Positions 16,430 to 57,955 of a stretch of 64,000 bases of DNA are shown here, piece after piece. Under the pieces are notes generated by a model. That model was not told the origin of the DNA, ran no database searches, and was given only the letters and a program-made list of their open reading frames with translations. The stretch lies in assembly GCF_013004645.1 (NCBI RefSeq), contig NZ_JABEME010000004.1, positions 186,001-250,000 on the forward strand. Direction: 5' to 3'. How positions within the stretch are numbered: the stretch's first letter is position 1; each line of letters starts with the position of its first letter. Source of the stretch: Stenotrophomonas africana (GTDB lineage: Bacteria > Pseudomonadota > Gammaproteobacteria > Xanthomonadales > Xanthomonadaceae). The translations under genes and the position numbers were made by a program.

Positions 16430-16960
16430 CCCCGCCGGGGGGAGGGGTATCGGCAGGGCTGCGCCCTGCACCCGCCTCAAGCAACGTCAACAGCAACAGC
16501 AGCAGCGGGTTTCCCGTGGTAGGGCGGGGTGGGTCCGGTTGCGGGGGACGCCGTGAACCCGTCCTTGGGGGCTTGGCAGCCGCATCCATGCGGCTGACAC
16601 CCCCGCAACCGGACCCACCCCGCCTTCGACAGATTCCCGCAATCTGTTGGACAGGCCGATGGGGTCAGATCCGCTTTCCGCAGGAAAACGGATCTGACCT
16701 CGGATTCAATTCGAGATCTGACAGATTCCATCCACGCATGGGGTGGATCTACCGGCCACCGGCCAACTGTCGAAGGCAGGGCACTGTGGGTTTGCGGGGT
16801 GTGAGCCGCATGGATGCGGCGACCAAGCCCCCATGGATGGGTTCACGGCGGCCCCGCAAACCCACAGTGCCCTGCCATCCCTCAGGAAGCCGCTTTGGCA
16901 TTTGACGTTGCCGTTGCTTCGGCAGGTGCAGGGCTGCAAGCCCTGCCGATACCCTCACTC
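16430..16960. repeat. Composite inverted-repeat locus 1 (two units head to head)
   Basis: This gene-free stretch of about 565 bp between proS and the DUF4124 gene holds two units of a composite repeat in opposite orientation. Each unit has a short GC palindrome (GCAGGGCTGCGCCCTGC at about 16446; GCAGGGCTGCAAGCCCTGC at about 16933), a 30-40 base block rich in CAA/CAG (or TTG on the other strand), and a long hairpin. Hairpin A has 24-bp arms at 16523-16546 and 16601-16624. Hairpin B has 25-bp arms at 16775-16799 and 16852-16876. Both enclose a related loop of about 52-54 bases that itself contains GCCGCATCCATGCGGC or its relative. The centre has further small hairpins, such as ATCCACGCATGGGGTGGAT near 16730. 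Similar loci lie at 32728 and 57412. No protein-coding frame is convincing. Confidence 0.85.
16663..16699. repeat. Hairpin with GGTCAGATCCG arms
   Basis: Arms GGTCAGATCCG (16663-16673) and CGGATCTGACC (16689-16699) are perfect complements around a core CTTTCCGCAGGAAAA that is itself nearly self-complementary (TTTCCGCAGGAAA). It lies between the two halves of the composite repeat. The form with conserved core and matched outer arms suggests a separate small repeat family, but only one copy is seen in this window. Confidence 0.7.
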
Positions 16961-32727: not shown

Positions 32728-33005
32728 GGTTGCCGGCCAGCGGCCGGCACCACCGGGGAGCGTCCACGCATGGCGTGGATCTGCCGCAGATCGCGGAAAT
32801 CTGTCGAAGGCGGGGTGGGTCCGGTTGCGGGGGCGTGAGCCGCATGGATGCGGCGACCGAGCCTCCATGGACGGATTCACGGCGTCCCCCGCCACCGGAC
32901 CCACCCCGCCATCCCACGGAAATCCTGCTTTTGCTTTGGCAGTTGCTGTTGTTGTTGCCGTTGCCCTGGCTTCGGCGGGTGCCGGGCGCCGCCCGGCCAA
33001 AGCCC
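32728..33005. repeat. Composite inverted-repeat locus 2 (single unit)
   Basis: One unit of the family seen at 16430 and 57412. It begins with the hairpin TGCCGGCCAGCGGCCGGCA (32731-32749) and the hairpin TCCACGCATGGCGTGGA (about 32763). The long hairpin follows with 24-bp arms at 32809-32832 and 32887-32910, having one mismatch. Its loop contains GCCGCATGGATGCGGC. Then come a TTG/GCT-rich block (about 32925-32975) and the terminal palindrome CCGGGCGCCGCCCGG (about 32979). It fills the divergent gap between chiA and purL right up to the purL promoter. Confidence 0.85.
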
Positions 33006-57411: not shown

Positions 57412-57955
57412 GGTTTACGGCCGGGCTGCGCCCGGCACCCGCAGAGGCCAGAGCCGGAGCAAGAGCCAGAGCAACGGCAACAGCGGGTTTACTGAGGGGT
57501 GGCGGGGCACTGTGGGTTTGCGGGGACGCCGTAAATACGTCCATGTAGGCTTGGTCGCCGCATCCATGCGGCTCACACCCCGCAAACCCACAGTGCCCCG
57601 CCTTCGACAGTTTCCTGCTGCTGTTGGCAGGTGTCGACCTTGGTCGACACGATCCACGCCATGCGTGGATGCTTTTCGATTCAAATTCGAAATATTCGAT
57701 TCCGATGGAGATTCATCCACGCATGGCGTGGATCTACTGCAGATCGCGGAGATCTGTCGAAGGCGGGAGGGGCCCGGTTGCGGGGGTGCCCGCGGCATGG
57801 ATGCCGCGGCCAAGCCTACAGGGACGTATTTACGGCGTCCCCCGCAACCGGACCCACCCCGCCATCCCGCAGGAACCCAGCTTTTGCTTCGGCCGTTGCT
57901 GTTGCCCTGGCCTGAAGCGGGTGCCGGGTGCAACCCGGCCGATACCCTCCCAGTG
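57412..57955. repeat. Composite inverted-repeat locus 3 (two units head to head)
   Basis: About 545 bp without a gene, between xpsD and a glycosyltransferase gene. Unit D: palindrome GGCCGGGCTGCGCCCGGC (about 57420), a CAA/GAG-rich block, then a long hairpin with 25-bp arms at 57501-57525 and 57578-57602. Unit E in reverse: long hairpin with 24-bp arms at 57762-57785 and 57840-57863 (three mismatches), a TTG/GCC-rich block, and palindrome CCGGGTGCAACCCGG (about 57926). Between them are GTGTCGACCTTGGTCGACAC (57631-57650), ATCCACGCCATGCGTGGAT (57652-57670), an AT-rich stretch with ATTCGAAATATTCGAT, and ATCCACGCATGGCGTGGAT (57715-57733). The layout mirrors locus 1. Confidence 0.85.

Follow-up and report, generated by a model that had tools for sequence, protein, structure and literature searches.

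What are the five long hairpins that stand at three loci of a 64,000-nucleotide stretch of the Stenotrophomonas africana genome (contig NZ_JABEME010000004.1, positions 186,001 to 250,000; this whole stretch is called the window), and what keeps each of them folded while their sequences differ? We found that they are members of a large dispersed DNA repeat family that spans an order of bacteria, which we take to be the Xanthomonadales, and whose copies adopt the same T-shape despite differing sequence. The arms that a first-pass annotation had listed were all confirmed in the sequence. Copy 1 (16523..16624, plus strand) is closed by a long stem, P1, with arms 16523-16547 and 16600-16624 (25 of 25 positions paired), and its inverted partner, copy 2 (16775..16876, minus strand), by arms 16775-16799 and 16852-16876, again fully paired. 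Copy 3 (32809..32910, minus strand) is single, with one mismatch in the 25 positions of its arms (32809-32833 and 32886-32910; 93% over 28 nt). Copy 4 (57501..57602, plus strand; arms 57501-57525 and 57578-57602, 25 of 25 paired) has as inverted partner copy 5 (57762..57863, minus strand), whose arms, 57762-57786 and 57839-57863, contain several mismatches (86% over 28 nt). The loops are related, as the annotation had it, and all five measure exactly 52 nt rather than 52 to 54. A scan of the window for inverted repeats (perfect core of at least 14, loop up to 150 nt) gave five with loops of 40 to 80 nt, namely copies 1 to 4 and one SMAG pair, the core of copy 5 being too short for the scan.

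A covariance model, R1, was built from the five window copies and searched through the whole S. africana genome (4.57 Mb). It gave 122 matches, one site being matched on both strands, and hence at least 121 sites; this may be a lower bound, as the best 150 of 2900 first-look candidates were scored. Several draft contigs (C8, C14, C20, C21, C27, C29 and others) end inside a copy, so that the true copy number in this genome is uncertain. This search, proposed in the annotation as a check, also reached beyond the species and the family. At a threshold of 1e-10, 30 of the 41 genus genomes searched, S. africana among them, have the element, the remaining 11 falling below the threshold; family-wide it was found in 11 of 60 genomes, and order-wide in 18 of 81, ten of which belong to two other families. 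Searches over 40 genomes used stricter filters and a limit on the candidates scored, and copy numbers from them are therefore "at least" values. Carriers include Luteimonas weifangensis, L. terricola, Xanthomonas arboricola, X. euroxanthea, Thermomonas, Vulcaniibacterium, Arenimonas and Lysobacter. The window gave no Rfam match above the gathering cut-off, and in a permissive Rfam search of 16440-16960 none of the 28 matches reached it, 21 of them being microRNA precursors. The family is apparently without earlier description: the annotation knew of none, we found none among the open papers of PubMed Central, and single short words of the element that turned up in four papers were judged to be chance.

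Each unit, about 102 nt long, is a three-way junction consisting of P1, of about 24 pairs and more (110 of the 122 matches, registered by loop), and the 52-nt loop, in which two side hairpins, P2 and P3, are formed. The annotation had recognised the conserved loop and given it one small hairpin instead of two. Counted along the loop, P2 pairs 3-5 with 23-25 and 11-13 with 20-22 around a 5-nt bulge, and P3 pairs 27-36 with 43-52, with some internal mismatch; both carry a hexaloop closed by a C-G pair. In copy 1 the junction loop occupies 16548-16599 (52 nt), P2 lies at 16550-16572 with the hexaloop GTCCTT at 16561-16566, and P3 at 16574-16599 with ATCCAT at 16584-16589, all on the plus strand. 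The hexaloops of copy 2, read on the plus strand, are ATGGAT at 16810-16815 and again at 16833-16838. Where two stem types had been distinguished at first, there are dozens: the 110 copies of S. africana in register, contig-end copies included, have 81 different left arms of 24 nt. That set omits 12 of the 122 matches (tip insertions, truncations, contig ends, indels and one double-strand duplicate), and the regular expression that defined it demanded TCC in both loops.

Pairing was measured on a different alignment, also of 110 copies, 84 from S. africana and 26 from other genera. It took 84 of 85 distinct S. africana copies and 26 of 28 chosen other-genus copies from a list thinned at 88% identity, leaving out one contig-end copy of S. 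africana and two other-genus copies, one of them with an N. Over 40 pairs, 92.8% of cells were Watson-Crick, compared with 31-38% in slid and 58% in shuffled controls. Among the 19 junction pairs, standard pairs made up 96.3% (77.8% shuffled), and the covariation score was 0.477, against 0.165 for shuffled and at most 0.092 for slid controls. The predicted pairs accounted for 25 of the 27 top column pairs by mutual information with average-product correction. The copies being related, none of these figures is a probability. Examples of covariation in P2 are CCC/GGG, TAC/GTA and TCC/GGA; in P3, GC and CG are swapped, and 27/52 is T-A or C-G. In the P2 bulge (loop positions 6-10) the prevailing sequences are GTGAA, GTAAA and GCAAG; positions 7 and 10 change jointly, being T-A or C-G. 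The fold is thus kept while the sequence changes, as the annotation had claimed from its five copies. Tests by mutual information and against shuffled and slid controls showed neither of the outcomes that it had named as telling against selection for the structure, identical stems elsewhere or no covariation in a large alignment.

Between genera and families the stems are wholly changed and the two hexaloops nearly constant. In scans by pairing only, CNTCCNTG was present in both loops of 85 of 86 S. africana copies and 65 of 68 other-genus copies; these scans did not demand TCC, but the loci had been found with R1 or with a pattern fixing part of the loops, 80 of 89 stretches being listed. Of 49 copies from the two other families, taken as an out-of-sample test, 47 had the motif in the P2 loop and 46 in the P3 loop; the set may lean to the motif since it was found with R1, which carries loop information. 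P3 was outside the fixed register in 8 of the 49, and where it pairs in register 41 of 41 P3 loops fit CNTCCNTG. The motif was missing from P3 in three copies (L298, L302, L305) and from P2 in two (L322, L327). Among 40 listed lines, in which some copies occur twice, 33 had two full motifs and 7 had one; six of the latter retain TCC in a shorter loop, and one (L302) does not.

Read from the other strand, each tip is C-ANGGAN-G: CANGGANG, the reverse complement of CNTCCNTG, is the hexaloop site of RsmA/CsrA. In the other families, loop variation falls mainly at positions 14, 18, 37 and 41, which are the N of ANGGAN. The idea that P3 loops never vary at N was given up, being true near S. africana only. 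According to excerpts of PMC7652899, RsmE binds an ANGGAN hexaloop in which N is variable, the SELEX (systematic evolution of ligands by exponential enrichment) consensus is RUACARGGAUGU with AC pairing with GU, and the bridging of two sites is optimal above 18 nt. In the element the two GGAs are 20 nt apart, counted from positions. By sequence and covariation, therefore, it has two C-G-closed ANGGAN hexaloops at more than 18 nt. None of the 50 other hexaloop hairpins of the window (stem of at least 6) had ANGGAN on either strand, and csrA was present in nine of nine genomes examined. The GGA loops at bridging distance recall the sequestering RNAs of the CsrB/RsmZ type (PMC7652899, in part) and RsmU of Xanthomonas, which comes from an mRNA 3′ untranslated region (UTR) (PMC7694677, in part). 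Those RNAs, however, are single genes with detected transcripts, whereas the element is dispersed, each copy having two GGA loops, and its transcripts are hypothetical.

If only one strand acts, the stem mismatches should tell which. A stem held as RNA tolerates G.U on the RNA strand, and this appears as A.C on the other strand. In the orientation in which the loops read UCC, P1 mismatches of S. africana were A.C rather than G.T in a ratio of 74:13 (pairs 1-24), those of other genera 66:10 (pairs 1-20) and those of other families 34:6 (pairs 1-22). These counts include inherited mismatches, and distinct events were therefore counted as well, giving 56:13, 51:13 and 25:5, respectively. Paired copies of S. 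africana gave 32:7 and single ones 42:6, and other genera without Luteimonas weifangensis gave 62:11. The other-genus set (80 distinct copies) retains at least one false match inside a gene (L254:6742). Units of L. weifangensis contain a second long hairpin downstream, with an ANGGAN loop (ATGGAG in 13, ATGGAT in 11 and AGGGAG in 2 of 26 distinct copies) on the strand that bears the UCC loops of the first. Here the ratio was reversed, 1:15 in the second hairpin versus 22:3 in the first (Fisher p 2e-7; distinct events 1:8 versus 9:3, p 0.008). The bias thus goes with the ANGGAN strand, whichever way the locus is oriented.

A general mutation bias was considered as the source of this asymmetry and rejected. 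When changes were polarised against the nearest copies (19 of 87 were ambiguous), the UCC strand showed G>A versus C>T 41:6 and T>C versus A>G 15:6. The flanks, loosely aligned, do not follow this direction: G>A was 62/735 and C>T 21/210 upstream, and 9/290 and 58/290 downstream. Hairpins of repetitive extragenic palindromes (REPs) and of terminal inverted repeats (TIRs) gave A.C:G.T 14:14, without bias.

Taking the observed fold, its covariation, the constancy of the loops across genera and families and the strand bias of wobble pairs together, we tentatively favour, at somewhat under even chances, an order-wide dispersed repeat whose folded single strand is kept by selection, acting as RNA with RsmA/CsrA as ligand. 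As far as the sequences go, we think that the RNA fold is selected, and it probably binds RsmA. The constrained strand would be the one on which both hexaloops read C-ANGGAN-G, and it would act in read-through transcripts, where a dimer of the putative ligand, RsmA/CsrA, could bridge the two GGA loops. A transcript across an inverted pair, in either direction, would carry one hairpin in the GGA form. Likely effects would be titration of RsmA by many loci, or an RsmA-dependent stability or translation of neighbouring mRNAs. It is possible, though we lean against it, that the scattered, independently diverging hairpins, up to more than 100 per genome and with two candidate RsmA sites each, make up a distributed sponge or serve as local RsmA handles on mRNAs.

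Several results weigh against this RNA explanation. Three of the nine csrA-bearing genomes are without the element, as are 11 of the 41 genus genomes at the threshold, which rules it out as an essential RsmA regulator. Several further bases that hardly vary (2C, 26T, 50A and the GYRAR bulge) are unneeded for RsmA binding, which suggests further constraints, and the N positions of P3 hardly vary in S. africana. Unpaired loop columns changed in the same direction as P1 (G>A 46/330, C>T 0/550), all 46 changes coming from two columns (14 and 29), and there may be a mutational share in the strand bias of P1. RNAfold gave the GGA strand a lower energy in 83 of 110 copies and a higher one in 25; its mean probability for the P2 tip was nevertheless higher on the UCC strand (0.63) than on the GGA strand (0.27). 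As encoded, the covariation fold lay about 15 (GGA) and 14 (UCC) kcal/mol above the minimum free energy (MFE), and both hexaloops were fully open in the MFE structure of one copy in 110 on either strand. Gene context points the same way. Of the outer neighbour genes called heuristically in S. africana, 79 run toward the copy and 34 away from it, so that the nearest mRNA has the UCC form more often; single copies between tandem genes were 12 UCC and 6 GGA.

This context is what a generic 3′-UTR hairpin would show, blocking 3′ exonucleases or aiding termination as proposed for REPs, oriented by the upstream gene and independent of its loop. The 79 of 113 outer neighbour genes that end toward a copy, often within about 100 nt, and the very stable stems agree with such a role. 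It predicts, however, that loop bases change freely and that the mRNA strand is kept clear of A.C mismatches, which in fact predominate there. We consider it very improbable as the explanation.

Arrangement in the genome raises a different alternative, a non-autonomous mobile DNA element of the miniature inverted-repeat transposable element (MITE) or REP-like kind. Its ends would be inverted T-hairpins, folded single-stranded DNA would be the substrate of a transposase or HUH enzyme, and the loops would be read at the 3′ end of either strand. In its favour, the copies lie scattered, with numbers detected per genome ranging from 0 to at least 121, and 2 of the 92 clusters of S. africana overlap a called gene. 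All 29 pairs of neighbours less than 700 bp apart are inverted toward each other (spacing 71-291 nt), as are 37 of 39 neighbours less than 1.3 kb apart in G011, a relative with a single chromosome. Such ends are expected of a MITE, yet 63 of the 92 clusters are single copies, some at contig ends, and inverted pairs hold 58 of the 121 detected sites, about half. Each round would favour active copies by their fold, and since both strands would have a GGA form at their 3′ ends, the symmetry equals that of the RNA reading. Parvovirus Rep is known to make loop contacts in T-shaped hairpins; the terminal hairpins of parvoviruses, with a long stem and two small arms, resemble the element in shape only.

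A recurring unit of about 450 bp in L. weifangensis also fits mobility: 32 distinct copies share it nearly throughout, and this genome supplies 57 of the 80 loci listed (out of 89 stretches). Upstream of the full hairpin, many of these copies have tandem half-copies that end near the P2 loop and are joined by a short linker, and the second hairpin of the unit contains further CAGGAGG motifs.

An enzyme was sought in and around the copies. No transposase was seen between copies in the open reading frame (ORF) lists of eight wider-spaced regions of G011 and one of S. africana. The idea of an autonomous element between wide pairs was accordingly dropped: the wide pairs of G011 hold mostly tandem SMAG/TIR repeats, one (L117) holds an ordinary ORF, which we take for an aldolase, and the S. 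africana region C24 368500/372120 spans several ORFs. Nor was a copy detected within 5 kb of the Y1 transposase genes of the REP-associated (RAYT) type, three in S. africana (G000) and five in G011. Within the genus a Y1 match occurs in 30 of 30 element-bearing genomes and in 8 of the 11 others, which is suggestive of RAYT dependence; this fails in other genera, since the carriers G099 (Luteimonas), G070 and G090 gave no Y1 match at 0.001. Plasmid and phage collections gave no match to one 102-nt query. A target-site duplication at the outer palindrome was considered and dropped as well, since the sole empty slot (G026) may equally be a deletion between short direct repeats, and no duplication was demonstrated.

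The element shares features with known palindromes. REP/SMAG, REPIN and BIME elements are dispersed intergenic palindromes, often in inverted pairs, with many copies and species-specific stems (PMC2817692, PMC3733652 and PMC3686654, each in part), and preserved palindromes pointing to complementary mutations were noted for REPs in the available part of PMC2817692. The annotation rightly set the element apart from a plain SMAG: it is a three-way junction of about 102 nt rather than a hairpin of 20-40 nt, and it has a wobble strand bias and no constant GTAG head. A GT(A/G)G directly before a 20-40 nt palindrome was not found, and the upstream flanks are variable and not alike between genera. REP hairpins are single-strand substrates with a fixed strand. 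They show no wobble bias, and because of this, and because no enzyme was found, we rate the DNA reading below the RNA reading. The TIR repeats of the S. maltophilia TIRYT elements are also self-complementary, mostly in close pairs and richest in S. maltophilia (PMC3733652, in part), a source that prompts the idea that the hairpin serves a RAYT/TIRYT element as its TIR. This was rejected on what lies beside the transposase genes. In related genomes, repeats flanking the matching transposase clade, which we infer to be ORF 1152, are GGGGTCAGATCC...GGATCTGACCCC, unrelated to the hairpin, and take the form of GGGGTCAG palindromes. All in all, mobile DNA seems to us an unlikely account.

Comparison of orthologous sites bears on how the copies change. 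At the slot upstream of the prolyl-tRNA synthetase gene, G005, G035, G036 and G032 carry hairpins of other stem or loop types, while the neighbouring gene is 91-95% identical among those species. G026 has the outer palindrome only, and no copy was present at this slot in the more distant species examined. In G017, locus L157 is a deletion derivative: a short word common to both marks the point where the P2 loop of one copy runs into the arm of the copy inverted to it. Reassortment of arms and of loop modules is seen among copies. The turnover at slots looks like the replacement of entire hairpins or modules, probably through recombination with other copies. The arm exchange suggested in the annotation finds partial support in the different stem or loop types at one orthologous slot, but whole hairpins or modules, not single arms, seem to be replaced, and exchange of one arm followed by repair looks less fitting. 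Part of the covariation within a genome is consequently shuffled old subtypes; covariation between genera and between families is unexplained by such shuffling.

In six S. africana copies the tip of P2 or of P3 is interrupted by an insertion, always just before CCAT. Four of them (C1:233, C4:90029, C5:42854 and C25:310648, that is L034, L045, L047 and L085) carry at the P3 tip an insert, about 80 nt long, that contains three small hairpins, and L095 and L077 have a different one at the same point of P2. Similar insertions at the P2 tip occur in other species.

Turnover of this kind could be all there is: the palindromes would have no function of their own, being kept perfect by hairpin template switching and recombination between copies, with old subtypes shuffled. 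Different subtypes at orthologous slots of close species, the reassorting modules, the deletion derivative and the tip insertions speak for it. It leaves unexplained, however, why loop and junction bases are constant across families while stems change, a point where the loops of other families strain it, and why the wobble bias tracks the ANGGAN strand in opposite hairpins of one unit and is absent in REPs. We regard it as decidedly improbable, although less so than the 3′-UTR role.

Further repeats accompany the window copies. The short outer palindrome GGGTATCGGCAGGGCT lies at 16445..16460, on the gene side of copy 1, and inverted at 16939-16954. A palindrome of the GGGGTCAGATCC type, which in related genomes borders one RAYT clade, is present at 16663..16699 between copies 1 and 2, outside the described element. 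Between copies 4 and 5 there is a SMAG/REP pair, GATCCACGCCATGCGTGGATG ... CATCCACGCATGGCGTGGATC (57651..57734). Many S. africana copies have on their gene side a short G+C-rich palindrome, then ACCYGC and a CAAC-rich tract; this palindrome may be a terminator or part of a mobile unit.

We file the element as a dispersed palindromic repeat, with RsmA-type loops as its proposed readout, that is neither a REP nor a known TIR and occurs without RAYT. Dispersed palindromes are usually attributed to transposition, DNA supercoiling or mRNA ends, without a sequence-specific readout. Here stems are free, loops are fixed in many genera, and the strand signature is that of RNA pairing. Counting A.C against G.T in stems, with REPs as control, is a cheap probe for one-strand RNA constraint in bacterial palindromes. 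One RsmA-sequestering RNA, RsmU, has been reported in Xanthomonas in the available part of PMC7694677. Should the loops described here be RsmA sites, a global regulator would receive input from a scattered repeat, which would be relevant to RsmA titration in Xanthomonas and Stenotrophomonas.
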